From Ceratothoa steindachneri (Eukaryota > Arthropoda > Malacostraca > Isopoda > Cymothoidae), in NCBI GenBank assembly GCA_963969495.1, contig OZ018324.1, forward strand, positions 43,522,609 to 43,586,608: a stretch of DNA of 64,000 nt, read 5' to 3'. Shown in pieces: positions 17,140-59,903 of the stretch (the stretch's first letter is position 1; each line of letters starts with the position of its first letter). Below the pieces are notes generated by a model. The model had not been told where the DNA came from and did no database searches. It saw nothing but the letters and a program-made list of their open reading frames with translations. The position numbers were made by a program, and so were the translations under genes.

Positions 17140-17793
17140 TTTTGTGGATGAAGCAGTAATTCACCGTATCAAACTTTCAGATATTGATCCAAGTAATGTA
17201 TGTTAATACAAAAATCATGATAGCATTCCCTTGGGAGGACAAATGATTAATGAACCAATATTTAGAGGTATATTGAAGATATTCTAGAATGAGTCCTTAA
17301 AACTTCTTGTGAAACTCTGCGTTCAAATAAGGAACATATTTTCACTGAATGAAGATAATGTGATTGCCTAGCTAAATGCTCTTTATCCAACCATTGCCTC
17401 AAACATAAGGTAGCTAAAAAGCTACCTATCTCAAGCGACAACATTACACAGTACTTATGAATTATGTACCATTAAATATGGTATGGCAATTCCAAATTTG
17501 CGCTAATTTCTGATTTAATGACATATCTATCACGTTTAGCATATTCATCATCATGGGTTGAACGTATATTTTCGCAAGTGAAAAACAACAAACCTACCCA
17601 AACTAATTCACTAAAGGCACAAAGAGTAGCGGATAGATTTCTGGCAAAACAATCAATTACAAAAAACAATTCCGGCTGTACTAAATGGGAGCCAAGCGAG
17701 GAATTAATTAGAGATGTAGAAAATGAAACAATTGCTATGTACAATAAATGTATGAAAGAAAGTAATATAGCAATTACTTTAGAGGCAAAATAA
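17140..17793 (+). pseudogene. hAT-type transposase, C-terminal part
   Basis: The plus-strand reading contains LNEDNVIA and LNALYPTIAS (about 17340-17400), then a stretch with several stops, then an open 91-residue segment from 17518 with the hAT dimerisation hallmark SSSWVERIFSQV followed by TNSLKAQRVADRFLAKQ and a W-P-S-EEL segment. hAT transposases cut and paste DNA; their C-terminal region mediates dimerisation. The usual (S/A)S-A-x-VERIF motif is present with Trp in place of a small residue. The N-terminal BED finger and the first catalytic block are not visible, and no TIR was found. TAA at 17791-17793 ends it. Confidence 0.65.
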
Positions 17794-18971
17794 GAGGATG
17801 AATCGCATTTGTATCAACCATTGGTAAGTACATAAATTTGGTTTAATTAAATTTATTTCATTAAAGTTCATTTTTATTATAATCTAGGAGATTTTATTTG
17901 AATCTGGGAAAATTTTTATTCAGGTTCTGGGGGAAATCGAAAAATCTCATTGGCAGCCCTACTTACTACATGGTTTCAAACCTTGCCCTTTAGCCGTTTA
18001 CCATTGCCATTAAATCTCGCGTCTAACGATCATAGTTTTTCATCATTCAATCACATATCTGGCAACAAGGACTAAATGGAGTATTGTTTAGATGATAATA
18101 GGTAATAATAGGTTATATAAAGATTATTTGTCCTAAGCAATGCGTAAAATTAGGAGGCCCCCTCCATTAAATGGACGCTGATAAAAAAAACAGTTCAATC
18201 GCTAAACTCAATGGAGTTCCCTCAATATTAATTTTAGAAAGGAATTTAATCAATGATGCAACAGACCACTGCCTTTCATCGCAAACAAGAGCCTCAAAAT
18301 GCATAATAATTTCATATAAAGATCAGGAATTCAATATCTCGAAACTTCAACGGCACCAGGGGCGAGCCCGCGTTGGTGGGGGGAAGTGCTATGAAAATCG
18401 GTAGTGTTGTGTCTCCCCGCCAAACCAAGGGGCGCCAATCCATGCCTCTCTAACGTTTACCTTTTTCTATTTTACTATTTTTTGTTCTATTTCCCTTTTA
18501 GCATTTGGTTTTTATATTTTCCTTTTAGCATTTTTTTTTTATTTCCATTTTGCTATTTAAATTTTACCATTCCTTTTTTCTGTTTTCCTTTTACCATTTG
18601 CTTTATTTTAACCATTTCATGGTGTCAAAATTTTGTCATTTAGATATGTAAAAAAAAATAGCTAAATCTCTTCTTTGCCCTAGAGATAACTCCCACCCAC
18701 ACAGTCCACCTGAAGAGGAAATCCCGTTCGGCAGGTTGTGTGATGAAAGAGCTGTGCATGAAAAGTAGATGGTTAAAGAAAAAATACCATCTAAAAGTGA
18801 ATATATATAAATGTACGAAGCATTTAAAAGATCATTATTCACCAAACCATATGATTAAATTACTTCACCTATGTATATGGTTTTAGGTACAAAATTCAAT
18901 TTAAGAAGGGGATCTCCTTTGCACTCATTATAGACGCCACAAGAAAAGCATCTTTACCCATATAACAACGC
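17794..18971. other. No gene; low-complexity T-rich patch
   Basis: No protein family recognised. About 18455-18615 is a T-rich array with repeated TTTTAGCATTT/TTTTACCATT phrases, preceded by a GC-rich patch at 18355-18450. The plus ORF at 18404 is a product of this composition. Confidence 0.4.
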
Positions 18972-19140
18972 TTGAATCTAAGTTAAATATTTGAATTCAA
19001 ACTTAAGTTTGTCAAACTTTTCCCCAAAACAAAGCTTGTTATAGCCTTTTATCATTTTGCTACTGCAAGGTGCTACAAATCTCAATGGAAGTTTGACAAA
19101 GCTTAACTTTGTTATCGAGTTTATTTGAGTTTAGAACAAC
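18972..19140. repeat. Foldback/MITE-like imperfect inverted repeat
   Basis: About 45 bases at 18974-19020 (ending GTTTGTCAAACTT) pair imperfectly with the reverse complement of 19090-19137 (which begins AAGTTTGACAAAGCTTAAC). About 70 bases lie between. It resembles a small foldback or MITE remnant; target-site duplication is not clear. Confidence 0.4.
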
Positions 19141-21051
19141 TGGCAAAGTCAATTTCTCTACAGCCTAAGTAACCAAACTCATCTCTCTGTCTCCAACTGG
19201 TCACAATGATATGTATATTACCTAACCCATCAGTTTTACTGGAAATGTTTTAAGTTATAAAATGTGGCAAGATGGCTACGGCAAGTTGGACTCTGGTTAG
19301 TTGAAACACCTCCATTCTATGTACTGTACGGTCTATTTTATCTTCTAAAATGAAAGAGTTAAATGTCCGCGAGATTTTGGCTCTCCTAATGGCAGAGTTT
19401 TTTGCTACTCAAACTCGTTGTTATGGCGAATTACTTGTAAAAATATGTCAGTATTTGGGTCATAAAATGTCATATCGTCAATTGAGATTTAAAAAAACTT
19501 AAAGATCCTGCAAATCTTTATTGAGAACACTATTTATGGAACAAATTCGATATATATTTAAAATAAAATAAAGTTAAAAGAGGTTTCTAATGTTAGAGGA
19601 GGTTTGACCCAAATTAGCCTTATTCTTGATATGAGCTTTCATGGCTCGCTATAGGTGACAATAAATTCCTTGTTTGTTTGTTTTGTTTGAAATAATTGGT
19701 TTCCATTTTCAGTCCAAAACACTGATAACAAAGAATGATGAAGAATTGATTTGAGAAAAGGTTTCATAATAAGAGATATAAGAGTAGTAGAAAATTAGGA
19801 AAATAGTAAATTACTAGGATTTTTACTATGGTAATTAATGAGAGAAACGGTTTTATTTATATTTTTGTGCATCTAGCGGGAGGAGATTTTGAGTATTTCT
19901 TTTTCGTCTATATTTTATGTGAATTTTCATGTCTTCTGTGGTAACTCTCAAGCCTTTATATTATTTTTTTAAAAACTAATAATTTCATATTATTTTATTT
20001 ATGATTACACAGGCCTGCGTTTGAAATTTTTTTTTATGTTCCTCAGGATTTCTTTGTGGTTTCTTAATGAATCCAACCTCCTGAGCTCAAAAATGAATGT
20101 ATATTTGTTCAATCAGATCAGATTTTCTCAGTACAGCATACACCATTTTCATTGAGATTACCTCATTTTTTCTGAATTTAAAAAAAAAAAACTTTCTCTA
20201 TCTAATAATGCATTATTACTGTTATATCATATAAACAGGAATACACGTATGTAAACTATAATTCTTTTAATAAACAAAAAATAAAAGAATGCAACATAAT
20301 AAATAAAATAATTATAATTTCGAAGAACAGACGCCCTTGACGATTTTCGTTTGTGCCTGTCATCTGGTCCATCACGCTTCAAACACCAACAGTATTCAGC
20401 AAGCATGTTTCCGTTCCATTTACACTGGTACCTGGATTCCATTGTTTTTATGTCCTGGTGGAATCTTTGCCCCTGTTACTTACTGTAATCCCCGCAGTTG
20501 TCGAGAAAATAATCCAGATGGGACTGTAAAAAGTGTATCTTTATAGACATTCGAACTTCCAAATATTTGAGACTTGTTAAGAGCTGATTGACCAGGGCAA
20601 CATATTCTTTTAGGCTTCTTTTATTGCCTAGAAAATTGTTAACTAGAGCTTTGAAAGCTTTCCAGGCATCTTTTTTATAAGTCCTTAATTGATGCTTCAA
20701 ATTGCTGATCAAGTTCCTGATTTGAAGTCCATCAAAAATTCCCCCATGGAGCTTAGCGTCGCTGATTTGTCGAAATTTTGGAAGAAGAAATTTAAAAGCT
20801 TGGCCTACTTTATTAAGGGTTTTGACATAATTTTTCATTATGCCAAGCTTTATATGCAGTGGAGGAAGGAGTATTTTTGGAGGAGGCACTAAAGGTTCAG
20901 CTATCACATTGTTTGATCTAATTCTAAATGCTTCTCGTGGAAGCCAAACCTTCTTCTCATAGTGCATACTATCTGCACGACTGTCCCATAAACATAGGAA
21001 ACAGAGATGCTTCGTGTAGCCTGTTTGTATCCCAAGCGTAAGAGATACTAC

Positions 21052-21464
21052 CTGAAAAAAAATTGGCATGGTATGTAAATTCAGTGTAATATTTCTAAAA
21101 ACAAATTCAAATTAATATTTCTTAAAACAATAAGAATATGAATATGTACTAAAAAATCCTGTATGCCGATGCATTAAATCATCGTATTGGAACTGATTGG
21201 ATATATGTACATCTTATTTTGAGTTTATTGAGTTGTGTTTTATACCTTCTCAATTAGGATAAGTTCCCCATTAACCCAATAGGATGCATTAACCTATAGG
21301 GACACACTTCAACAAAAAATATAACTCAAAAATGACTCATGATTTCCAGATTTGCATTCTTGTAAAATGTAAGTTAACCAAAAGGTGTATACAAGTATTA
21401 ACAATTAAAAATGAAAATGTCAAAATCAAAAAGCTTAGAAATGCCAAGTGTAAAATGATTTTAC
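21052..21464 (-). other. GT-AG intron of the Cys-rich pseudogene
   Basis: On the minus strand the exon ends TTAAAG and the intron starts GTAAAA. It ends in a T run and CAG before GTAGTATCT. Removing 413 bases joins GDLK to VVSLTLGIQTGY in frame, restoring the family motif order. Supported by reading-frame continuity, not by transcripts. Confidence 0.75.
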
Positions 21465-22056
21465 CTTTAAGTCACCACATATCCTCCACTTATAGCTAGA
21501 GTAATTTATTGCATCCAGCAATTTTTTCATATTTTTATAACTTTCAGTAAGTTGGATTGAATGGCCTATAGGAACGGAAGCTATTTTGTTCCTAATATTC
21601 AGTAACACAGCTTTTAAACTTCTACTGGAGGAATCTATGAACAGTCTCCATTCTAATGGGTTGTAGGGAATTCCAAGGGCCTCGACAAGTCCTTTAATAT
21701 TGGCGCAGTATACTAAAGAGCTGAAAGAATGCTGTAAAAAATAGCTTCGAAACTCTTGTTCTCTACTTCTGTACCCCCCTAAATGTTGTTTCTTAAGCGA
21801 GAAGATTACTTTCACGAAGTCGAGAGCCAAGAAGTTGTGTATTCGCCTTTGAAACCCTCAGATCCATGTTCAGGAAATTTAACCTGATAAGACTCAGATG
21901 TGTCATAATCTTGGTCAACTTCCATATTAATCTCTTCATGTACCTCTATATGTTCAGGGGGAGAAGGTATAGGAATTCCTGGGCCATGGGGCAGGGGTTT
22001 GATGGCAGAAGGAACATCCGGATATGCCACACTATGTTTATTCTTCTTATTTATAC

Positions 22057-22254
22057 CTGTGGGAAATATAATTGCATATTACATAAAGGAATTGATTTGG
22101 AGTTGCAGATAGTACATAAATGTTTAGTAAAGGATATGTTCATGCTGAAGTGAACTATGTTAGTTTTTAATTTTATGCTAAGTCTTTGCATAATAATGAC
22201 ATTTTCAGGAGCCAGTATATTACAGAAAGCTTAAATACTTGATACAATGCTCGC
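22057..22254 (-). other. GC-AG intron of the Cys-rich pseudogene
   Basis: The exon ends CTTAAAG, the intron begins GCGAGC and ends CCCACAG before GTATAAATAAG. Removing 198 bases joins NLK to GINKKNKHS in frame. GC-AG is a known minor variant; it may equally be a decayed GT. Confidence 0.65.
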
Positions 22255-22561
22255 CTTTAAGGTTTGGCATGCAAAAATAGCAGTCCGTAGTGTGGTCCTT
22301 GCCATCTCTCCACACCATGGGAACACCAAAAGAGAGGGACTTCTGTTCGCCCTGACTCCAGCGTCTTAAACTTATGTAGCATTCCTTGCAGCAGATATGT
22401 GGTGCAAAACTTTTATCTTAATCTCTTAGCCTTACTCCAAAATATGCATGATACAACAAAGATTTAATTACAGGAGAGATTGTGCTTTGCTGCTCGGGAA
22501 AAGTCACTTTGCCGCAAACATAGCAAAATCTGTCCGAGCTAGTCTTACATTTTCTGTTCAT

Positions 22562-22950
22562 TTTTAACTCAACCACTATTATTATTGTTCTTATTATTAT
22601 AATGCTAAGCAATTTTTAACCTGAAAATATAAACCTATTTGAATAATTACTTAAAATGTACACAAAATTTACTGCGAATAGAGCAGTGCAAAAACTATTG
22701 AAATTTGATGTATGTAATATAGGAGATGTATAAACTATAAAATTATTATCACCCCCTGTATCGCAAAAACTGGAGGTGATAGAGAAAAACGGATGACAGT
22801 TTCGGATTTAGAAGGTCAATTTTATTAAGAAACACTATAGAAAACCTAAGGTACATTTTTGACGCAGACCAGTGTTATTGTTTCTTTTATTTTTTCTCTA
22901 TCTCTTTCACTCGCAAGTATCATACCTACATCGCTATTTATTTTTAAATT
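22562..22950. other. Flank of the Cys-rich copy, no gene recognised
   Basis: AT-rich. It contains GTATCGCAAAAACTGGAGG near 22760. This could be the 5' flank or terminal part of the repeat unit carrying the Cys-rich gene. No TIR was established. Confidence 0.3.
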
Positions 22951-24890
22951 TACATTACTAATATTGTGATTAAGCCTTGCTGTTTTAGTATGTTAGTTTT
23001 GATTCTATCTTCAAACTCACATTTCGCCCTAAATTTTTGACGGCTATTTTTGTGATGTACATGTGAAAATTGACTCAAGATTTTCATTCGAACAGATCAT
23101 TCTGCTTGAAAAATTTTTGTTTCCTCTCAAAACTGTTATTTGTTTTCAAGTATCTCTATCCCTCTAGTTGGTTGGTAATGATTTTATATTGATTCTTTCC
23201 TAGGTTTTCTTGACCAGCTTTTGTGCCACTAATTATATAGCTTTTCCTCCACTGCACCAATTTGAAGTATATCATTTTGTCCTTTTGGACAGGCAATTTA
23301 TTTGCCGCTTCTTGGTCCCAGCCTAGGGGATCATCGATAATTAAATGAATTTGCGTAGAGTAAAAATTAGTATAATTTCTTGATGTTTTTCGAGTTTAGG
23401 TTTCGGAATCTGTGGCTGTTATTAAATTCACTTTTTGCCAGATTTTTTTTAAGCACCCGTTGGCTAAAAGGCGGAGTCCAAAAACATTTCATTCAATGGC
23501 ATATCTATAATAACTTCGATTCATGATCACGTCAGAAACCTTCGGGCAATATATAGGATGGATCTGGAATTTTTGAGGTGTTCGTTCTTGTTTTCCATTT
23601 CTTCTTTAAATTGTTGATATTTGTGATGCCTGGGCCATCACATATCTGTACCTACTGTGAATTATTTCGTTTGCGAATTAAAGATACATCGGATTTTTGT
23701 TTACTGTATGGGGAGAGAGAGATTCTGTGAATAAGGTCAAGGAGGGGGCTTAGGTTGCCTTACAGAATACTTGCTTGTAGCTTATATTATAGACCCTCGT
23801 AGCATTCTCAGATGATTGAGATCAGCTTTTGCATGATAAAGTCAGAAAGGATTTTTCTCTCTCCATGATAGGCTTTGGGTAAAGCTTAAGGATTTCATAA
23901 TGTACATCTCTCAGGTAGACCTTATCGAAGGCCTTCTGAAAGTTTCGTAATATGTTATATACCTTCTATTCGTACGTTTTTTATTGATCATTTCCATCAT
24001 AATTCCGAGAGGGGGATTGTACTACTTCTTCCTGGACTTGTGTTGTTATGGGTTGTGCACACTCTTTTCGCTCAGTCGTGTTTGGATTTTGTTAGCCAGG
24101 ATACAATGAAAATTGGCCCAGCTCACCTAGAGGCATGTTCTGTTTGGGAAGGATAATGACTGTAGGTTTCTGGAGTATTCAAACCCACTTCCACGGTGAT
24201 ATGAGGAGTAAATTTCCTCACCTCTCTTTCTTCGTAGACGTGCGAATGCAAGTGCTTTGCGTCTATGATTGTGTTTTCTTGATAAATTAATTGGCCTTCG
24301 AAATCCTGGTCTAATTCGTTGTTTTGTCTAGTGCTATGGAAAAACTTTAAGCCCATAATCCCCCGAAACCGCTCACCTATCGTCTCAGGATCCACTAGGA
24401 TTTTTCCGTTTTCAAGGGTCATAATCTTTTCTCTAGGTGACATTCCTTTAATACTTTTGATGTTCTTTCACAACATTTCTAGGTCGTTTTCTTCATCTAT
24501 TTTGCTCATTATGTCTTTCTAGTTTTGAGACTTTTGTTCATGTATTAGCCTTTTAAGCTACTCTCTTATTTAATTAGTCAGGATTAGAGCAGATACCATA
24601 TCGCACTGTAAATGTCCCTGTCTTCTCGGGTAATTTCCTGCAACTCATCGATCCATCTTGTAGTCAGCGTAGTGGAGACTTTTATTTAGGTACCTGTTCT
24701 CGGTGGCGGAGATCCGCTAATTTTACAGAACACTCCATTCGTTGTATTGTTCGAGTTTGTTCCCATTCAAACACAAAGAATGTTCTCATATTCGGAACCA
24801 CATTATAATTTGACTTACTGATGCTACAATAGATGGTTTTAAAATCTAAGATAGTTCTTAGGATAAAACGAGACTCAGAATGCATGAATC
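22950..24890 (-). pseudogene. LINE reverse transcriptase remnant
   Basis: On the minus strand, 24443-24300 reads MTLENGKILVDPETIGERF, typical of the linker just before the RT of non-LTR elements (EDGEILTDPEEI-like). Upstream is an acidic/basic helical stretch (MSKIDEENDLEML). Downstream near 23960-23910 is FQKAFDKVYL, matching the RT motif DFxKAFDKV that carries the first catalytic Asp in intact RTs; here the acidic residue before FQKAF is not preserved. The rest, to about 22950, decays into stops. The clade cannot be assigned. Confidence 0.5.
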
Positions 24891-26704: not shown

Positions 26705-27807
26705 TTATTCCTCCAAATTAGATGAGAAAATCAAAGATATTTCGATTCTATAAACGATTTCCAAATGTTCAATATGCGCACTGCCTGAAACACGGCACAC
26801 GCCAAGTCCGTAGTCCAACTCCTCCCAAACACGTTGCAGCATGTCTTTGGTAACAGTCTCCAGTGCGGAAGTGATTCTGTGCTTGAGTTAATCTAGGTTT
26901 GCAGGAAGGTAGACCAGTCCCTCAACATAGCCCCCCAGAAAAATATCGCAATGTCTAAGGTCAGGTGAACGTGGCTGCCATTTCAACAGCACATTGTCTT
27001 CATCACTATCACGCTTGATCCATCTCCCTCGCAGATTGTCATTCAGACAGGCCCGTACAGTTAGTTTCCAGTGAGGTGGGGCCTTGTCCTGTTTAAAAAC
27101 CAAGTCTTCTTCTTCATTTCCAATGTGCTCATCCATTAGCCAATTCTGAAGCATTTGCAGATAAACACGGCCGGTCACATTTTCCTCAAAGAAAATCGGG
27201 CCATGAAGATGGTTCTTGGAGATGGGGAAGAAGACATTCACTTTCTTTAAGCCCCTTACGTGCTCAACTGTGGCATGGGGACTTTCTTAGTCCCAAATTT
27301 GAACATTATGCTTATTGACTCTGCCATTCGTATGAAATGTGGCCTCATCACTGAAAACAAGACGTTCCTTGAACTTGTCTTCTTTAAGTTTCTTATGCAT
27401 ATCAACACAGAATTCTTTGCGCTTGCGCTTGTTATCTGGCGTTATGGCCTGAACTAGCTACAGCTTGTAGTGTTTCATTAGTAAGCGTTTTCTCAGGCTG
27501 CGACACACTGTTGTTTAGGGAATTTGGGTTTTCAGACGTGCCTCTTCTTATTGACTTCTTGAGGATTCGCAAAAGAGATTTTGGCGAACCTGCTCGATTG
27601 TGTCTTCTAATGTTATTGGTCGTCCACATGCTTTTGCCCTGCACAGACAGTCTTCTTTTTTGATTTTTTGGGCCGTGTCCAAATCTGCATTGTCGTTGGT
27701 GACTGTTTAAAGAACTCTCTCACAAATGCCCGATGCACAGTCTTGCTCGACAGTGATCGACCATACTCCAACACACAAAGCGCCTTTTCACCTTAAGCGA
27801 ATGACAT
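26705..27807 (-). pseudogene. Mariner/Tc1-superfamily transposase, near full length
   Basis: A continuous minus-strand frame from ATG at 27807 to TAA at 26705, about 367 codons, broken mainly by in-frame stops. It starts MSFA-stop-GEKALCVLEYGRSL (N-terminal HTH), then GRPITLEDTIEQVRQNL (second HTH). The first catalytic block is RLVFSDEATFHTNGRVNKHN, the second LVFKQDKAPPHW and the third SPDLRHCDIFLGGYVEG. A C-terminal tail SALETVTKDMLQRVWEELDY follows. Asp of FSDE, KQD and HCD are all retained. Stops occur after SFA, SSRSQ, TQIP, HYKL, RIWD and PANLD. TIRs were not resolved. The third-block spacing (46 residues between KQD and HCD Asp) is longer than classical mariner, so the subfamily is left open. 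Confidence 0.8.
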
Positions 27808-31959: not shown

Positions 31960-33163
31960 ATTTACCTTTAGTTCTACATTCTATGTTGCAGTTCTTCGTT
32001 ACATTATCGGCGTCAGATTCATCTTCTAACTCTGAATTGGCACCATCATCTAAACAAAATTAAAATCTTACTGCTTCCATCAATACTGCTTCTATCAATT
32101 TAAAGTAGATGATTCAAGTTATCTGATTGGAATTTCAGTGACCTGGACTGGAAAAGGTTATGGATGTAGGAGACAAAAAGATGTTTAGCCACACTTGCAT
32201 CAAAGTTTTGGATACCTTCACGTTGCCAAGAAAGTTATTCATTATTAGTAATGTCTTCCTTGCTTCCATTTATACTTCATTCATTGAGTTTCAAACTCAG
32301 GATTTCTGATCAGCTGAAAGAGTTGATCACCATCAAATATACCAGTTGTCAGCTTTTCAATGGTCAATCCTGGAAAAGCGTAGCACAAGTAAGTGAGGCA
32401 GCCAAAATTCGTGTCCAGACGTTTAGTGAACTTTTTTGTCAAGCCGATCTTGATGTGGGGCGGTTCGATGAGTTTATGGCCATCCTTGCTCAGAAAGGCA
32501 CCAATTCTCGCAGTACAGGCCAGTCCTTCTTCGTGTTATGTTGAACTCATTCCATACTCTTCCAAATGCAAAAAAAAAACCACTGGTACTTGGTAAACCC
32601 AGACTATTGACCAAACAAAAAGTTCACTAGCAACACAAAAGATAAACACAAATCAACCCTTCATGCAAATTATAACAAATCTTTCCAGGACGTACTTCCT
32701 CGCTTCATTCTCCTTCAATGGAGTCGAGCGAGCGTAGTCAATATAGGCCAATGGTTGACGTTGCGCAGCAGAACATATTTCAATGCTCTACCGGACGATT
32801 TACTGATCGAAGCCTAGGACACTTGAGGCAGCTACAGTTTTTCCGCTGATCCCAGTAAAATCAATGGCTCATAAGTAGCAGTCAGTGTCATGGTTTGTCT
32901 GCCTCCTTCATCCATGAGAATTCCAAACCTCAGAGAACTCTCCTTGGACTTCGGCCAACGACGCTGATACTACAGACATGTATTTTATATCCTGTATGGT
33001 GCACAATCTTTATCCTCTCACCAAGTTTCATGCCAAAATAAACATGCTAAGCACGTTTTATGAAACCTGTGACTGGATTCCTTTTAGGAACAAGAGTATA
33101 TTCGCCTCAGATATAGCTGAATACATCGGGCTTATTTCTGCAAGATCTTCTTGTCGAATCCAT
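31960..33163 (-). pseudogene. Second, decayed copy of the Cys-rich repeat family
   Basis: Minus-strand pieces in family order: MDSTRRSCRNKPDVFSYI with GEYTLVPKRNPVTGFIKRA (33163-33040; the CxxC of the head is lost), YFGMKLGE, RRWPKSKESSLRFGI in a shifted frame, then after a gap HNTKKDWPVLRELVP (about 32540-32500) and, in another frame, HKLIEPPHIKIGLTKKFTKRL and FPGLTIEKLTTGIFDGDQL (about 32490-32330). These match positions of the copy at 20.2-22.6 kb (HIKLGIMKNYV, GGIFDGLQI). Frameshifts, stops and a central deletion make it non-functional. An acidic run (ANSELEDESDADN) near 32050-32010 may belong to it or to something else. Confidence 0.55.
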
Positions 33164-38741: not shown

Positions 38742-40460
38742 CTGGTTCTATTAATTTTAACTTGCCTTTTCTTAAGATTTTTTACAGATTTTTTTTAACG
38801 CGGTCTTCGAGGCGAGAAAAAACATCCGCGAATGACATTCTTTATTCCTAGACTTCTTTCGACCATGTTAGGTCATCTTCAGCGAATGAACAGACATGGA
38901 AATATTAAAAAATTGCTACATTATATATAGTATTTTTACGAGAACATAAGTATTACAAATTTGGCCAATCATGGCGCTGGAAACTTTTAAGGGGAAACTA
39001 AGCGCTACAAGAAACATATAAAATTGGAAGGCTCATATTGTCTGACTATTTGATTCTATTCTATTCGTATTTGGATTCTTTCTTACAACGGAGAGCTGTG
39101 AACGCGCTAAAGGAAAAGTTCGCTTTTAATTAAAGTTAACTTCAAGAAAGAAGAAATATATGCGCCCTCTGGACTGATTAGAGATTCCTACCGTTTGCAG
39201 TGGGCGGAGTGCTTACCCTAAAGGGGTAATTCATCCTTAATTCCTCCTTATTCCACGATTTGACATCCACATACTTCACTAACTAAAAGCAACATAACAC
39301 GACCACTACTGCGCCCAGAGCTACTTAAAGTAGGCTATAGTGAACCCTGAAAGCAAATCCCTCGATTTTCAAGGATCATCCTCTCCACATGGGCCACATT
39401 GTCCTCATTGGTCACGTCTGACGGGCGTCCTGGACGGGGGTCATCTTCAAGGTACTCACGACCATGGCCGAACTCACTATTCCAGCGAGCAATGGTTGCA
39501 TAGGAAGGGTCGGTGTTGGTGTACACTGCGACCATGCGTTCATGGATCTCTTTTGCATTCTTGCCTTCCTTGGTCAAAAATTTGATCAGTGCACGGTGCA
39601 AAATCATCTCCATTGTTGAAAAATTTGTGACTGACGATCTGCGATCAGCTACTGCTTCTTAAATCGACGAGGCAGAAGCGTGCGGCTGCAGGTCCTGACT
39701 TGGCATAACTTGTCCCAACACCCCCACAAACAGCCATCTTCCTTCTTCTGTTTTGCCCTACTGATTCGTAATACTTATTGCTTGCCCCTCGTATATAATT
39801 AGATAAATATCAAGTATGAGGGTCGGTTGGGCTCACGTTACGATGAAGAATGGCTTTGAGAACCTTTTGGTCTTCACGGTAGCCAGTTTTCATATTGGCC
39901 TTGTAATAAAATTCAATATTACTCCTCTTCAGGGTAGACCTAACGCCAGGGCAAGTAGCCAAGTTAATTTTCTCTGTCATGGTGGCGTCGATAGATTCTT
40001 GCTGGTAGCCGTTGTTAACGAGAACTCGGGAAACCCTCTTAAGATCGTGATCTACAGCGGTCCACGAGGATGAATGAGAAATTGCCTTGTTAACTAAGGC
40101 ATTGATGAATGATCTCTTGTGACGTTAAGGACACTCAGAAAAACCGTTTAAGCAGAAGCCCAAGTTCGTGGCCTTAACGTATACTTGGGTCACAAATTTT
40201 GACTCTTGGGCACTTATGAGGATATCAAGGAAGGGACGGGATCCTTCACCTTCCGTTTCGTGATGAAATCCAGATACGTGTTGTTCTTGAATTTTTCAAC
40301 TAGGCCGTTCACTCGTTCAAGGTTATTCGTATTCAAAATTATGTCATCGATATAGCGTGCTTAGATGAAAGGCTGAGGTGCTATATTGCTCAGAAAAATC
40401 TTGTTCTCAACTGAGCCCAAATAAAAATTGGCAAAGTAGCGCGTGAGTAGTGCAATAATT
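38741..40460 (-). pseudogene. PLE with YIDD reverse transcriptase, split by a mariner fragment
   Basis: Minus-strand frames read ANFYLGSVENKIF (about 40435-40395), ARYIDDIILNTNNLERVN (the RT catalytic block, both Asp kept), EGEGSRPFLDILI, KATNLGFCLNG, DHDLKRVSRVLVNNGYQQ and NIEFYYKANMKTGY with LKAILHRNVSPTD (to about 39800). The 5' two thirds of the RT are missing. The mariner piece at 39335-39613 follows. At 38885-38845 the conserved PLE 3' element CTGAAGATGACC then GGTCGAAAG lies close to a (TA)n array, so 38741 is probably the 3' end of the same copy. Confidence 0.65.
39335..39613 (-). pseudogene. Mariner transposase N-terminal domain fragment
   Basis: An open 92-codon frame starting MEMILHRALIKFLTKEGKN, with IHERMVAVYTNTDPSYATIARW (read in two parts) and LEDDPRPGRPSDVTNEDN. 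This is the SETMAR-like mariner N-terminal region: two HTH motifs joined by the GRPS/GRP minor-groove linker. It binds the TIR in intact elements. The DDD catalytic domain is missing; the frame is lost after ENRGICFQGSL. It lies inside the PLE sequence. Confidence 0.7.
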
Positions 40461-46591: not shown

Positions 46592-47440
46592 TTATTCTAC
46601 GCTATTCGGTAACGCATTCACACTGAGTGCGTCAGCGACCTGGTCATCGAAACCTTTAATATAATTTATTTTACATTGATACTCTTGCAAGTGTAAACTC
46701 CAGTGCATGATTCGGCCGTTGGAGTGTCGCACATTCCTAATATAGGCTAACGGACGGTGGTCGGTTCCTATCTGAAATTCTTTACCTATTAAGTACATCT
46801 TGAATTTGTCTATGACCCAGATAATTGATAGAGCTTCCTTTTCTATAGTGGCATATCTCTTTTCGCGTGGTAATAATTGACGACTAGCATATGCAACTGG
46901 ATGACTCGTGCCGTCATCCTCGTATTGAAGGAGTACACCTCCAATGCCCTCGTTGCTCACGTCGGTCTTAATCCCAAAGGTTTTTTCCGGGTTGGGCAAC
47001 TTTAAAATGGGGGCAGAAATGAACTTACTCTTGAGCTGATTAAAATTGGAAACAGCGACATCATTCTAACGTAAACGATCGGGGAAATTCCTTTTTTGAA
47101 GGGGGCTCAGGGGGGCCAAAATTGCAGCGAAATTCGGAACAAATCGCTGATAGTGAGAAGCTGATCCTAGGAACGATCTCAATTGCTTCTTTTTAATCGG
47201 GAGGGTCATGTCGGCGATTGCCTTAATCTTATCCTCTTGGGGACCTAACTGGCTTTGTCCTATTTTGAAACCCAAATATTTGATGGTTTCGTGGGTAAAA
47301 TGGCATTTGCTGGGGCTAATGGTAAGGCCATTTTCGCGCAGTCACTCGAAAAGAGCTAATAGGGTGGTTAAATGGTGACTCCATTCAAATAGTTCTTGTA
47401 GCTGACTCTTTTGATGTGGTGTCACCTGCGCGTCAATATC
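46592..47440 (-). pseudogene. Gypsy element 2: RT C-terminal part and RNase H
   Basis: Minus strand: TPHQKSQLQELFE (an upstream pol linker) is fused to WSHHLTTLLALFE and GLTISPSKCHFTHETIKYLG, the part of RT after the YxDD box, so the RT fingers and palm are deleted. Then LRSFLGSASHYQRFVPNF (47275-47066), a short gap, and an open RNase H frame (46999-46592) with FGIKTDVSNEGIGGVLLQ, PVAYASRQL, EKEALSIIWVIDKF and IGTDHRPLAY. The RNase H acidic residues Asp, Glu and Asp are kept. It ends in VNALPNSVE-stop. RNase H would degrade RNA in the RNA-DNA hybrid; without RT it has no partner in this copy. Confidence 0.85.
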
Positions 47441-47771
47441 CAGGTCAGAGGGGTTCCAAAGACTCGCCTGGTAGGGAAGGAGGAGGGTAATCAGCATCAG
47501 GTTGGGTGCACACTGTCTGTATTACATTAAGGGACTCCGCAGGGTAATCTTCTTCAAGCGCCGAGGTTTCGTCCAGTTCTACGAAGGTATCTCCATGGGC
47601 GCGTTGGGGGTTCTTTTTTTCTTGGGGTCCACGGACAGTCTCCGTGTCCTTGTCCTGGGCCTTTTCGCCTAAGGGTGTTAGTAATTCACACTCCTTGTGT
47701 GTCGTTCTAAAGTCCTGGTTAGGGGTCTCCGAGAAATCGGACGGTATCGGGATTCTGATGGGGACGGGCTC

Positions 47772-48320
47772 CTAGGCTTCTTTCTTATCTCGGCCTCGAG
47801 GAAGGGCGGCCTGAGACAGAGGGTCGGAAATTACTTGGGGGCTCTGTCCTATAAGTACGAAACAGAATTGTATGGGTGCTGAAATGACTTCAGCCCAGCC
47901 AACATAATATTGACACTGCAGGTAACATCTAACGACGGGGAATTGGTTCGCCCGCCCAAGGTAGTCATGTACCATCGCAAATTTTTCGTGGTTATGGTCC
48001 ACTGGGGGGAGGAGTTCGTCGGACACGATGAAACACGTAACTCCGGTGTTCCTGACGAGAGTCGATACTCGGCAGCCGTTTACGCTGCCCTCCTCAAATT
48101 TCAAAGTTCCTGGTGAACTTTTATCAAAAATAAAATTTACCTGGTGGGTTGACCGAGGGGGAGAAGTTGCTGCTTGGGTCTGCACCACCAAGGGAGCCGG
48201 GCTTGCATTAATCTGGTGAACTTGGTGGGCTGGTCCGCTTTTAAGCCTAGAATTTTGGGGGCAATTCCAGCTCATGTGGTTTTCTACACCCCAGGTGAAG
48301 CATATGATTGGTCGCTTCGG
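47772..48320 (-). pseudogene. Gypsy element 2: zinc knuckle and protease region
   Basis: The zinc knuckle reads CFTWGVENHMSWNCP (about 48310-48265), with Trp in place of the second Cys. A spacer with HQVHQINASPAP follows, then GSVNGCRVSTLVRNTGVTC (about 48095-48035), in which the protease D-T-G reads N-T-G, so the catalytic Asp is lost. CFIVSDELLPPV and PVVRCYLQCQYY follow, then ISAPIQFCFVLIGQSPQV. The open frame is 167 codons. Compare element 1, with different lesions at the same two sites. Confidence 0.7.
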
Positions 48321-49238
48321 GAAGAGAGATGGACGAGAAATCTTAACGGGAGGTTTGGAGTCCCGTTGTTGGTTTTAGGGAAAGAAGTTTTGGGTGTTTA
48401 CGGGGCTCGGAAACTTCGTCGGCTTTTCTGTGAAGGAGCGCGAATCCTTCCTTCTTTCCTTGCAGGGGGATTGGTGAGAAGTTCGATTCTCCTTCGGGAA
48501 TAAATTATGGCTTGCGGCATAGACATCCGCTTCTTCGGTACATTCTTTAAAGGTCTGGCACCGACGATCCTTGACGAACGTGCGGATCTCCGTCGGGAGA
48601 GACGCCTAAAATTAATCTCGCAACACGAAGTCTGTTAAGGACTCGTAGTTCGGATCAACCTTTGAGGATTCTAACCAAAATTTAAAATTCCTCTGAAGAA
48701 TGTATCCGAATTGACGGAACGTCTGTCCGGGTTTAATACGACCTCCTCAAAATTCTTAGCGGGAGAAATCGGGAGTCATATAATGAGCGGCCAATAACTC
48801 AGCTTTTAAGGTGCTGTAGTTAATTGTACACTCAGATGGTAGAGATATAAAAATTTCCCGCAATTTGCAATTTAACAGGGGAAGTAATCTGGCTACAGCT
48901 TCAGCCTCCAGATCCATGTTATTGATTTCGAGGATCTTTTCGAAGTGGGCTAAAAATGCTCCGAAATCCTCTCCATCCTTGAAATTGGGGAGCTTTAGTG
49001 AGAAATTGGCGGGGGCTTTAGAACAGGAACTGGCGGACTGTATCTCTGCTTCAACACGAGCTAATTCAATCTAATAAGGAAGCTCAGGTTGTCTTATCCG
49101 TTCCTCTCTTTCTCTTGTTTCTCGTTGGATTACTCTTTCTTCCTCCTTTCTTTGCTCCTCTTGAACATACTCAATTAGTTCTTTTCCAGAAAGTCCCAAG
49201 GACTCTCTTTGCAATTTTAAGATTTCAAACTGAGTCAT
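48320..49238 (-). pseudogene. Gypsy element 2: gag
   Basis: Starts at ATG 49238: MTQFEILKLQRESLGL, SGKELIEYVQEEQ, a short Arg/Glu-rich coil, a stop at LPY-stop-IELARVEAE, then LKLPNFKDGEDFGAFLAHFE, ILEINNMDLEAEAVARLLP, KAELLAAHYMTPDF and RIKPGQTFRQFGYILQ, with FVKDRRCQTFKECTEEADVY toward the C-terminus. Four or five stops break it. The domain order (coil, capsid, SCAN-like domain, zinc knuckle) is that of gypsy Gag. The intact Met allows the start to be placed; element 1 lost it. Confidence 0.7.
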
Positions 49239-52290: not shown

Positions 52291-53208
52291 GGTAAAAGAA
52301 AGGTAACAACAAGGAGTAACAACAAGCAAAGAAGGTACCCTAGGAGACCTTACGGTCCATTCAAAGAGGGTACCATTGGACTTGCAATCGAGCGAGCACA
52401 AGGCTGCTCAATTGTTTTGCGTCCCTAAACGGCCACTTTTCAAGACCTTGTCTAGTCTTGACTTGAACTGGTCAACAGATTCACTGTTGACAACTTCCAC
52501 TGGAAGTGCGTTCCACTTACCGAAGATACTGTAGGTGAAAAAATTTCCACACAGATTGCGATTGTAACGCTTCAGTTCAAGTTTGAAGCCGTGATTGCGC
52601 GTTCTGTTCTCACTCAGTGTGAAAATATCCCGGTAGTCAACATTGTCGAACCCTCGAAGTATTTTGAAAACTTCCATGAGCTGACCACGCAGTCTACGGG
52701 TTTCCAGCGAGAACAGATCTAATTCCCTTAGTCTATCCTCATAACTTTTATGTCGGATAGAGGGAATCAGCTTGGTTGCCCTGGCTTGTACGCGTTCCAA
52801 TCTCGCGATGTCTTTTCGCAATGAAGGACTCCAAAATTGTACGGCATACTCCAGGTGCGGTCGGACAAGTGAGTTGTACAGGCACAGTACAATCTCCTGG
52901 TTCCGATAACCAAACTGGCGCTTAATATAGCCTAGCATCCTTTGGGCCTTTTTCTCCGCCTCAATGCACTGTTTCGAGAACTTGAGGTCACTAGTGATAG
53001 TAACACCCAAGTCCTTCTCAGTGTCACTCGATTCAAGAGCAGTGCCCTTAAGGATATACTGAGATTGGGGGTTTCTGTGGTCGATATGCATCACGTGTTT
53101 TCCACGTGGATGGTCAAAAGGGTACAATTTAAAAGGAAAGCCTGACCTTAGGCGAACAGATATACACAGGTAATACCGACTGATCCTAATAAATTTATCC
53201 CCCCCCAA
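52290..53208 (-). mobile_element. CR1-like LINE, 3' fragment
   Basis: A 5'-truncated non-LTR element holding the open reading frame at 52408-53208 and a short 3' UTR. At its 3' end near 52295-52320 is a tandem TTGTTGTTAC repeat, like the short 3' repeats of CR1 elements. It lies between LTR C and the third gypsy internal region. Confidence 0.65.
52408..53208 (-). CDS. LINE (CR1-like) polyprotein C-terminal region, open 266 codons
   Basis: This is the longest uninterrupted ORF in the window. Its first 30 or so residues are probably not element sequence. From about residue 34 it reads HPRGKHVMHIDHRNPQ, SSDTEKDLGVTITSDLKFSK, QRMLGYIKRQF, LYNSLVRPHLEYAVQFWSP, LRKDIARLERVQARATKLIP, YEDRLRELDLFSLETRRLRG and GKWNALPVEVV. 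This is the thumb and C-terminal region after the RT palm in CR1/Jockey-type LINEs. The catalytic RT (YADD) and endonuclease are absent, so it cannot work alone. The intact frame suggests a recent insertion. The annotated Met is simply the first in frame. Confidence 0.8.
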   Translation of the reverse strand: MGGDKFIRISRYYLCISVRLRSGFPFKLYPFDHPRGKHVMHIDHRNPQSQYILKGTALESSDTEKDLGVTITSDLKFSKQCIEAEKKAQRMLGYIKRQFGYRNQEIVLCLYNSLVRPHLEYAVQFWSPSLRKDIARLERVQARATKLIPSIRHKSYEDRLRELDLFSLETRRLRGQLMEVFKILRGFDNVDYRDIFTLSENRTRNHGFKLELKRYNRNLCGNFFTYSIFGKWNALPVEVVNSESVDQFKSRLDKVLKSGRLGTQNN

Positions 53209-56200
53209 AAAAGGTAATATATTTAAATCGCTACATTGACAATGAGATGGAACAAAACAACTAAATGAGTTGACATAAAAATTTAATATTTGATTATATT
53301 CACACTGGATTTGGTTAATTAACGAGCAAAAAAATCTTATACGAGTCTAGGAACAAAAAAACGACACATAAATGATAAGAAAAAATAATTAACAATAATC
53401 CATACAGATAAATTGAAAATGGACCGGAAATCTATAAATGAAAATATATACACAATAAAGGCAATAGGGCTGTTTCCTACTATACAATTAACCTTGATTA
53501 GTGCCAAAGGGGTTACGGCTGAGAGTATCCGCTAACAATTGTCTGATCCCTTTATGTACAATATTTTGAACTGGTATTCTTGCAGAAGTAAGCTCCAGCG
53601 CATGATGTGTCAGTTACTATTCTTGATATTACAAAGATACGCAAGAGAGAGGTGGTCCGTCTTGATTACGAACTCCTTCCCTACCAGATACACTTTATAA
53701 TTACGGCAGGCCGTTACTAAGCCAAAGGGGCCCGATGTAACTGCATTCAGCCTTTATCGGTTGTATATTGTCTCACGCTCTTTCTATATAGGATCTGATA
53801 ATATGCCTTGCAAAGATCTAACTGTGATGAATTTCACTTCTTCGTAAAGGTGGAGGTTCTGGTCTATTAGGGGAATTCATTCAGCATTAAAGACAGTCAC
53901 GGTATCAACCTTTCGAAAATGTACGCACATATGGTACGTAACTATCATTCATCCATACCATCACTAGAGCGGAGCAATAACTTAAAATGGAGGGCTCAAT
54001 GATGTAAAGATTAGGCAAGTTTTCACCCTCGGAGTTAAATGCTTGTTTTATGTGAATAGGTAGGGGTTACGGATTCGAACGGATGCGTTCTTGAGTGGTA
54101 AGCGTAATCTGACTATTACCGTGCTCAAATTGTGTGGCACAGCCGTATATTTTTGATATTACATCTCCAAACCTACTTAACAGCTGCTGCAGCTGATTAT
54201 TTTCTTTGAGATCAGCCGTGCTTCAACGTCTAGTCCAGTGGGTAGTAATTCGGTTAGGCCGGGCAAGGTAGGAAGAGGATAATCCTTATTCTGCTCCACG
54301 CACATGACCTGTATCATATACAGTGCACCCCTGAGGTAATCAACCTCCATAGATGATTATTCATTGAATAACTTATTTGAAATAGTTATTAAAGTCCCAT
54401 TTAGTTCTTTGCAAATACTGTTTGCTACAGAGAGAAACGGGGTGGTAAAAGAGGTTTTTACCCTCAGGCATTTTGCAATATTGTGGCAAAAATAGCCAGG
54501 GAGCAAACTGTCTTGGGTAGTTTTACGATCGTGCGAGTCGTAAGGACGTGGAACGCACAGCGAATGAGCCTCGGTTTTATTACCATCTGATGAAACACGG
54601 TACCAAAGGCCTTCTATTACGGAGTAAGAGGTAGTTGTGTGGCTGCAGACAGAATCTTGCTCGTTGCTCCAAGCTTATTCCAACATGGGAGGTAGGGTCT
54701 GGGACTCCTTCTGGTCTCGAGCGAATTATTCGCTTTTGACGTTGTTGGAATCAGAATCGCAGAGGGCTTCAAGGGAAACTGACGTCTGAGATTCCCTCTT
54801 AGCCGGGGCTCGTGTGACAACGGGCTGAGCCACAGGGTTGGATAACACTTGGGGACACTGTGCAATAAAATCCGAACAAAATTTATAGGTGCTGAAACCA
54901 GTGCCAACCAGCCTGTAAAATACTGGCATTTCAGGTGGCAATTTACAATGGGAAGCGGTTCGCACGTCTTAGTTAAACATGAAATATTGCAAACTCTTGT
55001 GTTCAGAGGTCACTTGAGGAAGAAGTTCATTTGACACCAGGATACAGGTGCATTCACGGTTCCATTTTCCAATTTACAGTAAATCCTCCTGGCAAGCTTT
55101 TGTAAAAAAAAAAAATGCCCAGATGTCCGGGGGAGCTAGAAGACGAGAGAGGAGCGGAGGTTTCGGGTTGAGGTGATCGGGGACCGGGAGCGGTGCTCCC
55201 TTGGTGAACTTGGTGAACGGGGTTATTTCGGAATTGGTAGTTCTGGGAGCAGTTCGTGCGTACATGTCTTTCCACTCCACCCTAAAACAAATTATCGATT
55301 TCCTGAGGAAGGACGACCCAGGGGGAATAGTAATGAGAGGTTTTACATCTCGGGGTTCCGATGGGGTGAAATTTCTGGGCTGAGAGGAGCCCGAAACCTT
55401 AACAATCTTATGGGAGTTACTAGGAGGAACCTTGGATTACTATTTTTGGACTTGAGGAGGAAGGGGGAGACATCCTTTTGCCCTTTGGGTACAAATTATG
55501 GCTTGTGCGTAGACACCCGCCTCCGCAATACATTCTTTGAACGTGTAGCATCGACGGTCCTTCAAGAATGCACGGATTTCTGGAAGTAGCAAAGACAATA
55601 ACTGGTCCTTTAAAAAAAAAATTGACTATAGCCTCATGACCATGGGCTGTCTTGGAAGCGTCCAACCAAAAATGAAAATTTCGCTGGAGGCTACATATAA
55701 CAAAACTGACGGAACGTCTGATTTGGTTGAATTCAGGCATGACGAAATTTACAACGGCAAAAGTCACGGGTCATTTTATATACTGCTAAAAGCTCTGATT
55801 TGTGGGCGGAGTACTCAATCGTGTCTGCCGAAGGAAGGAAGATGAAAATGCCCCGGAGCTGGTAACTGAGTAGGAGGTAAGAGTATGGCAATACCGTCTG
55901 CCTCGATGTCCCTCGATCTTCAAAGATATTCTCGAAGTGGGTGAGGAAAGATCCGAAGACCTTACCTTTTTAAACATGGGGAGCTTGACTGAAGTGGACT
56001 GGGAGCCTTCCATACCTGAATTAATGGAAAGAGTCTCTATCCGGGCGCGATTTATTTTCAGGTCGTACTGTCAGGCTCTCTGTCGTTCTTCATTCTATGC
56101 CATTTCTAGCTCTCTCCTTTTGGCTCTTTCTTTGTGAGTTCTTTTTCTCACTTTTTGTTTCTGAACTCATCTCTCGTCTCTCTCATTCCTTTCCTCTTCT

Positions 56201-56738: not shown

Positions 56739-57875
56739 GGTAGGAGACCATGTTGTATGCATGCGTTATTAAAGTCAGCAGCTGCAGTAGTGTGATTGAT
56801 TTTGACTTGAAATTTCTTGATTTGCCTTACAAGTCTCCTAAAAGGAAAATAGCCACAAAAGATATATTTTATTCCTAGACGCTTTCGACCGCAGTGGGTC
56901 ATCTTCAGGGAAATATGGTAGTAACTCTTATAATTTTGACAATATGGTAGAAGTATATATTCATTTTCTCTAAATCGATAAGCATACAAAAATTGACCAA
57001 TCAGGGCACAGGAAAATTTTAAAGGGAAAACTATATGTTACAAAAACGTATATAACAGGGAGATTTTTATATCTAAATTTTAGGTAAAGGAGGCAATGGC
57101 AAAGGAGGCCAGGGAACAGCACATGGAAAAAATTTTCAGAAGGGAAGACTATGCGTTACAAAACCGTATATAACGGGAAGGGTGAGATTTTATATCTAAA
57201 TTTTAGGTAAAGAGGGGGCAAGGACAAAGGAAGACGGGGAACGGGTAAACTATGCCTTACAAACGGAATTAAGTGTCAGTGGGTGCTTCTTCTAACGACG
57301 CTCAACTTAGGGACGGTGAAATTTTGAGAGTCCGGTCTCTGGCTGGAGCTGCACATTGTTTGCCGAATTCCTTGCTTGTATAATTACGGCTTCGGCTATT
57401 CTTAACCTTCGTTGATCTTTCAACCTAATGATGATCGAGGTGTTCTTAGTTAGCTCCTCGCGTTTCAAGACAGTTCAATGGGAGTGAACGTGCCTTTTTG
57501 TCGCTCCGTCTTGAAGGTGAGCTGTCAACCGCCTTGAGAGGGTTGTGGAGGTTACGCGAATGTACTTAGAGTTGCCATGTTCGCAGTCACCAAATTTGCA
57601 TGTAAATTTGTACACGACGTTGGTCTCCTGGTGCTCAGCTATAGGCGGACGGAAGACAGCTATTCTTCATTATGCAGCTGCTCGTTTTTTGGTTTTGTAG
57701 AATATAATTAGGTTAATATTTGTATTCGTGTCGATTGGTGTCACGTTCCGATGTAGGATGGTTTTTAGAAAGAGGAACGGTACCGGAAAAATCAGCCTCC
57801 TGCGCACTCCGCCCACGACAATAGGTCGCCTCAACGTGACACAGTTAAAGTATGCAGTTGGCACGGTATTCGCTA
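56737..57875 (-). pseudogene. PLE 3' part with decayed GIY-YIG domain
   Basis: On the minus strand: FLFLKTILHRNVTPIDTNTN with LIIFYKTKKRAA (57770-57670), a frame break, then NVVYKFTCKFGDCEHG, KYIRVTSTTLSRRLTAHLQ (YIG has become YIR), REELTKNTSIIIRLKDQRR, AEAVIIQARN and NVQLQPETGLS (57630-57300). This is the C-terminal GIY-YIG nuclease of a PLE with its CCHH-type linker partly visible. The 3' UTR follows and contains CTGAAGATGACCC then GGTCGAAAG near 56915-56880, ending at a (TA)n array. The RT is absent: a LINE begins at 57880. Confidence 0.65.
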
Positions 57876-57879
57876 TACG

Positions 57880-58506
57880 GTTGCCAACTGGGTCCTAAAC
57901 ACACAAAAACCGGACATAGTACTCTTGAACTCAAGCAGCCTACATCCTCTCAACAATATACTTCGATTCGTAGGCTACCACACATACCTATCTCCACAGG
58001 AGCAGCACTTAGGATCAGCGATCCGTGTAAAACGCTCCACACACGACGACTTCATACAAACACAAGACGGCTCCATTCTACCCTGCAAGATACAGACAAG
58101 CTCCGGCTCCATTCTAGTGGCCACATACTTCAGACCACCTCACCTACAGTTAAACATAGAAGCCCCACTCCGTGCTCTATCTAACCACAACCACCATATC
58201 TTCTTCGGGGCGGACCTCAACCTCTTTCACCCGAGACTCTTTTTAAACAGTAAGATTGACGCAGGAAGGTAGCTGGTTGATGCCTTGCGGCGTTATCGCT
58301 GCGAGCACATCGGCTCTGCCTTTCCTACATTATTCGGTCCTCATCGAGGTACCACGTCTCCGCACTTGGTCTTCCGCAACGACCACGCTACACTCTTCTA
58401 CACGCACATATCACCGGGTCCCCACGTACTCTCTGACCACATACCGATATGCCTAATCATATCCACATCTCCAGTACTTATACCTAGACCCCCTCTCTTC
58501 GACTAA
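57880..58506 (+). pseudogene. LINE apurinic-type endonuclease domain
   Basis: From about 57888 the frame reads WVLNTQKPDIVLLNSSSLHP, then GYHTYLSPQEQHLGSAIRV, SGSILVATYFRPPH and HHIFFGADLNLFHP (Asn/Asp catalytic block), then, after a frame change near 58260, FPTLFGPHRGTTSPHLVFRN and HVLSDHIPICLII with the catalytic SDH motif. This is an EEP-fold endonuclease that nicks the target for reverse transcription. The Glu of the expected LQET block is lost (LNSS). Confidence 0.7.
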
Positions 58507-59797
58507 AATAACACAAACTGGGAAGAGTTCAAGAGACACAATAGACAATACGCGACAAAATCTCGACCTGGAACACACCGAGACAGAGCTTTTAGACGAC
58601 CACTGGTGCTCAATCATAAACATCATAACCGCAGCAAGCAATCTACACACACTACATACTTTGATAAAACATTTCGCATTTTCCATACACACTCAGAGAC
58701 TGATCTCACAGTACAACAATCACTACTCTAGAGGCCCACGAAAACATAACATTAATCATTTACGTGCCCGCATCGTACAGTGCGTGCGGCTAAACAGGAA
58801 CCGGCATCGTCGGCGTGAGGTCGTCCGCATCGCAGACGACACCCGTTGGGCTAACCCCCCCTTCTTCTGGCGGAAAGTAAAAAGGATGATGGGCACCGAC
58901 ACACCAAAACTCATCACCCTCCAAGTAAACAACTTAACACTAACAGACACTAAAGTCATCCACGATGCATTTAGGTTCCTTTGGGACACAGTATATAAAC
59001 ACAACCCACCAAAACCACACGCACGGCTGCCTTCCAGGAAGTCCATGAGTGGTTTCGGGCTCATGCTCACGAGCTAAGGCATGCCCCCCTGATACGAATG
59101 GAGCTGCTTGAATATACATCCACATTGACCACTCCAATCACCCTCTAGGAAAAAAAAACACTACATTAAGAAACCACCAAAACGCACCCCCGGTCCTTCC
59201 GGGCTACCATCCACACTAATCCACAACCTTCCTTCAAACATATACCCCACACTAACACACCTATTTAACGCCTTACTACCTCAGGCCACTCCCTGAATAT
59301 ATTTAAAGTCTCTCACCACATACTCCTAAACAAACCCAACAAAGACCACAAACACAAAAAATTACAGGCCTATTGCTCTATTAGAGCACCGAGGCAAAAT
59401 ACTCAAATGCATGATCAACTTCCGCCTGCGGTAATACCTGGAAGAGAGGGACTGGTTCTCCCCCCACGAATATGGGTTCAGAACGGGCCGGTGCGCTCAG
59501 GAGGCCGTGACCATCATTCATGAAGGAATACAAAAAAAACACCAGATACATCAAAATACACGCTCCATCAGCAAGGACGTGGAGAAGGCCTTCGATAAAG
59601 TGTGGCACGAGGGACTCCGTTGGAAACTCGCCAACAATACGGAGTTACCACTCCGCACCAGAATGCTCCCCTCGCACTACCTTACTGAACGGAGATGCCA
59701 CATAAAATACAAAAACACTCTCTCACAACCCTTCATGCAACGCCCAGGGGTTCCCCAAGGGAGCGTACTAGCAACCACACTAACCTCACGTACACAT
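58507..59797 (+). pseudogene. LINE linker and start of reverse transcriptase
   Basis: A linker with NHLRARIVQCVRLNRNRHRR and RWANPPFFWRKVKRMMG (58.76-58.90 kb) is followed by RT blocks: NYRPIALLEHRGKILKCMI, SPHEYGFRTGRCAQEAVTII, KDVEKAFDKVWHEGL (first catalytic Asp present as KDVEKAFD) and QRPGVPQGSVLATTL. The order is that of Jockey-clade RT blocks 0 to 4. The frame is lost at the mariner insertion. Two frameshifts and several stops break it. Confidence 0.72.
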
Positions 59798-59903
59798 ATA
59801 GGGTCTTTAAATAAGGGCGATCAATTTTTAAATGTAAATAAAACAAGTTGAGTATGATATATGCACTCTGTTTATTTTAAAGTTGAAAGTACATTTTATG
59901 GCA

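Follow-up and report, generated by a model that had tools for sequence, protein, structure and literature searches.

A decayed three-exon gene for a transposase

The minus strand of the window, by which we mean the whole 64,000-nucleotide stretch of the isopod Ceratothoa steindachneri considered here (contig OZ018324.1 of assembly GCA_963969495.1, positions 43,522,609 to 43,586,608), carries at 20008..22874 a 2867-bp unit with inverted CAC..GTG ends and a TAA duplication, which is very probably a dead DNA transposon of the Chapaev3 type. Its transposase gene is divided over three exons. The first (22255..22561) holds the start codon and an N-terminal Cys-rich region with three Cys pairs, the second (21465..22056) a linker and the codons for the first and second catalytic Asp (21635-21633 and 21473-21471, respectively), and the third (20320..21051, where the 3' limit of ~20320 is the end of the match) the motifs C(2)C, LH and H(4)H together with the end of the catalytic domain. 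Exons 1 and 2 are separated by a GC-AG intron of 198 nt (22057..22254, junction NLK/GIN) and exons 2 and 3 by a GT-AG intron of 413 nt (21052..21464, junction GDLK/VV), while relatives such as P0010 are uninterrupted at both places (NLKGIN, GDLKVV). An original prediction, made from the letters alone, had reported long conserved blocks, Cys pairs and these two introns within 20228..22561; all of them are present, with junctions that match the relatives, and the span takes in only the coding part of an element that runs from 20008 to 22874.

The coding match of the joined exons is far above chance. Read together, they align with a 558-aa protein over the full length of that protein (E = 1.2e-209, 57% identity), and the three coding pieces also match separately by tblastn (1e-81, 3e-41 and 5e-39). 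A frame-aware alignment of the window copy to the family member P0001 (324 identical of 539 aligned residues) revealed three in-frame stops, at 22418..22420, 21793..21795 and 20476..20478, and two frameshifts, at 21774..21777 and at 21877, the latter of uncertain position in the poorly conserved linker; this is one more of each than the two stops and single frameshift first counted. The stop at 20478-20476 falls on a glutamate (E506 of P0001) that is found in all 110 aligned relatives. An additional apparent shift at 22261-22258 was an artefact of starting exon 2 one base too early, and the correct junction reads through. With five lesions in its gene, including the stop at the invariant glutamate, the window copy is unable to make transposase, and the decay originally proposed for it is evident from these stops and frameshifts. 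Besides the transposase, the element has one stop-free frame of at least 90 codons, which is antisense (21797-22150).

Ends and target site

The terminus and duplication rule for the end search was taken from the published description of Chapaev3 (PMC4079192), and the flanks were scanned under it at 22562-24200 and 18000-20330. A single pair resulted, with CACTGGTCTGCGT at 22874 and CACAGGCCTGCGT at 20008. The 5' terminal inverted repeat (22862..22874, minus strand) and the 3' repeat (20008..20020, given here as read on the plus strand) are identical at 11 of 13 bases and carry the CAC..GTG termini of Chapaev3. On the minus strand, a TAA preceded by A lies on the 5' side (22875..22877) and a TAA followed by T on the 3' side (20005..20007), so that the insertion context is A-TAA-CAC...GTG-TAA-T, which in this one copy matches the TWA duplication between A and T of that type. 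When the full rule was applied to dinucleotide-preserving shuffles, a pair appeared in 0 of 3000, and in 18 of 3000 if any 3-bp duplication was accepted. When the flanks were scanned for inverted repeats without this rule, nothing convincing emerged, but such a scan would miss the real ends because it needs an exact 8-base seed, whereas the true ends share only six consecutive bases. Examination of the flanks for inverted repeats and target duplications, which had been proposed along with the original prediction, thus found both, and together with the retained introns they bear out its view that the unit moved as DNA and not by retroposition.

Relatives without a family name

A first protein search recovered 1904 relatives at E <= 1e-3 among 7234 candidates, and a second search with another member recovered 2500 among 7301; the best 120 of the first all lacked a Pfam domain, as did 118 of the best 120 of the second. 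Within these best 120, the named relatives came from the tunicate Clavelina, the mantis shrimp Oratosquilla and the hagfish Myxine in the first search, and from the frog Ranitomeya and the pseudoscorpion Cordylochernes in the second. Among the 120 matches listed in the first search, the named ones are all called "uncharacterized" or "hypothetical protein". The two exceptions in the second search, both from Cordylochernes scorpioides (P0180, P0207), join the transposase family to mariner-type transposase domains, and these fusions are probably nested elements or faulty (fused) gene models.

Pfam and NCBIfam gave no significant family for the transposase, and a profile search of PDB gave no significant sequence link (best E 0.93). 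A weak Pfam match to zf-AD was seen in 13 of 38 relatives, at best 0.0018 with 18.9 bits, where the model's cut-off is 28. Pattern matches were also obtained in viral contigs (34) and in prokaryote genome contigs (101), with no confirmed relative in either set, and a literature text search for the string PPLHIKLG matched no paper.

Conserved motifs and predicted fold

Each motif residue of C(2)C, LH and H(4)H in the 558-aa P0001 is conserved in 110 of 110 sequences of the relative alignment, and the window copy retains all three motifs. The catalytic triad is likewise strongly conserved (D257 in 110, D311 in 109 and E506 in 110 of 110), where we infer E506 to be the triad glutamate in preference to E509 (109 of 110). 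Intact members have at least four Cys pairs (C13/C16, C57/C60, C93/C96 and C330/C333 of P0001), where three had first been described.

The predicted fold of a relative is an RNase-H-like core with a zinc insert of the RAG1/Transib type, aligned across most of the domain, and in structure it matches RAG1, Transib and BbRAGL best; a fold search against BFVD gave nothing at E <= 1e-3. The transposase, the product of the one gene recognised in the element, would have had ~557 aa, with a Cys-rich, presumably zinc-binding N-terminal region followed by an RNase-H-like catalytic domain that bears the D-D-E triad. The latter is predicted to resemble the RAG1 core, with C(2)C and H(4)H at the RAG1 zinc site and the histidine of LH at RAG1 H795.

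An N-terminal zinc domain, Chapa, has been described as common to Chapaev, Chapaev3, TransibSU and RAG1 (PMC4411706). The N-terminal Cys pairs of our family, which may represent such a domain, align in the same order with residues 156-224 of mouse RAG1 (hhalign E 0.0073 at a probability of 5%), and 13 of 200 shuffled controls scored as high in the test of the N-terminal region. With 19 of the 27 RAG1 sequences found, the hhalign E value was 0.16, weaker than with the one RAG1, and the Pfam model RAG1_imp_bd reached one window piece at E 0.13, under its cut-off.

Probable assignment to Chapaev3 and alternative readings

We assign the element to Chapaev3 because it agrees with the published account of that type (PMC4079192) in its ends and target duplication as well as in the length and motifs of its protein. 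The Chapaev3 elements described there (Garfield, Merrow, Conan) share with it a transposase of ~556 aa (556 aa in Garfield) with C(2)C, LH, H(4)H and a D-D-E triad, as well as CAC..GTG ends, an A-TWA-T duplication and animal hosts. That study gives CAC..GTG ends for Chapaev in general, and for every Chapaev3 that its authors examined a TWA duplication with an A before it and a T after it. On these published descriptions, we consider it very probable that the element is a dead autonomous cut-and-paste transposon of Chapaev3 type, within the clade EnSpm/CACTA-Mirage-Chapaev-Transib. The original prediction had spoken of an unnamed family and an undescribed system, and neither is supported: the flanks belong to a class of transposon already known to carry this open reading frame (ORF), an outcome that had been named beforehand as one that would count against the prediction. 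The element is old, with well-preserved ends, and of a type already named; its transposase is distantly related to RAG1, which assembles antibody genes in humans.

Two points slightly lower our confidence in this reading. By repeat match alone the chosen pair of ends scores 11/16, and one of the 287 other CAC/GTG pairs reaches 12, albeit without a duplication. In addition, we fixed the repeat length of 13 bases and the required 11 matches after the pair had been seen. In size the element (2867 bp) is similar to the published elements (2289 bp for the Garfield consensus), and it differs from them in having three exons, most Chapaev3 being reported with one and Merrow and Garfield with two (PMC4079192).

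There is a slight chance that the element belongs to another lineage of the clade (EnSpm/CACTA, Mirage, Plavaka, ESTA, Lanisha or an unnamed sister of Chapaev3), which would still make it a cut-and-paste element with a RAG1 fold. EnSpm, Mirage, Chapaev, Transib and others form with RAG1 a clade with C(2)C and H(3-4)H between D2 and E, and these motifs, mostly CA..TG ends and 2-5 bp duplications are common to the lineages (PMC12730594); EnSpm/CACTA, Mirage and Plavaka resemble our family in both motifs and ends. The lineages were compared by their published descriptions. Set against this are the protein length, the combination of LH with H(4)H and the A-TWA-T rule, which are those described for Chapaev3, and our family has no significant match to a Pfam transposase.

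It is highly improbable that the element is itself a Transib or a RAG-like (RAGL) transposon, even though RAG1, Transib and BbRAGL are the best structural matches. The Pfam RAG1 model, which scores a true RAG1 at 1262.9 bits, was absent at E <= 1 from all 38 relatives scanned, and these had no Pfam match to a RING or RAG1 zinc finger; there is no significant sequence match between RAG1/RAGL and the window family. The duplication here is the 3-bp TAA and not 5 bp, the length found in RAGL and predominant in Transib and RAG (PMC7204232). Canonical Transib is reported to have no domain besides the core (PMC4411706), and Transib (HzTransib) also differs from our element in duplication length. Beyond the transposase the window element has just the antisense frame mentioned above, no RAG2 search having been made. 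It is equally hard to credit that the unit is a host gene, once domesticated from a transposase and since decayed, an explanation that the two introns with good splice junctions might invite but that is not needed for a unit bounded by inverted repeats and a target duplication, with numerous and widespread relatives and a second relic of the family inside the same window.

As a Chapaev3 element, an intact copy would be mobilised by transposase molecules that bind the inverted repeats at both ends, as the family and RAG1/Transib suggest. The enzyme would cut at the CAC..GTG ends and excise the element, which would then be joined to a staggered target at A-TWA-T, duplicating the TWA. Zinc binding, assembly, chemistry and end binding are all proposed here by analogy.

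A second relic and the history of the introns

A more decayed relic of the transposase family, with an internal deletion, was located by alignment to family members at 32177..33163 (minus strand). Of 11 members tried it is closest to P0026 (138 identical of 317 aligned residues), with eight stops and nine shifts in that alignment. Noisy as it is, the alignment shows a long insert at neither of the two intron sites, so that lineages with and without these introns have been present in this genome. Some contigs behind protein database entries may derive from RNA, and we claim intron absence solely for the second relic.

The three exons are a Chapaev3 variant, known from a single dead copy. We tentatively suggest, as a possibility rather than the expected outcome, that a Chapaev3 lineage with three exons, found next to a relic that is without these introns, reflects introns gained (or lost) within a mobile transposase gene. 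The literature passages covered, on Chapaev3, Chapaev transposase and the Chapa domain, do not mention three exons; Repbase Reports and most subscription papers fall outside that scope.

Other ORFs in the window may derive from further mobile elements, judging by their motifs. One at 17476-17790 (plus strand) resembles the dimerisation region at the C-terminus of a hAT transposase, those at 26891-27286 and 39338-39658 (minus strand) resemble pieces of mariner transposases, and those at 46595-49070 and 52411-53346 (minus strand) and 57769-59848 (plus strand) resemble pieces of LTR/LINE retrotransposons.

Implications

The finding gives a name, Chapaev3-type transposase, to a protein family that, among the 120 matches listed in the first search, carries no Pfam domain and, where named at all, goes by "uncharacterized" or "hypothetical protein". 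In genome annotation such genes should be treated as repeats and masked, and host gene counts should leave them out. The structural resemblance predicted for the RAG1 core lends support, by another route, to the published view that Chapaev stands close to Transib and RAG1 (PMC4411706). If the three-exon lineage suggested above is real, such compact single-gene transposases, with a predicted RAG1-like core and N-terminal Cys pairs in a RAG1-like order, would be useful models of the pre-RAG state.
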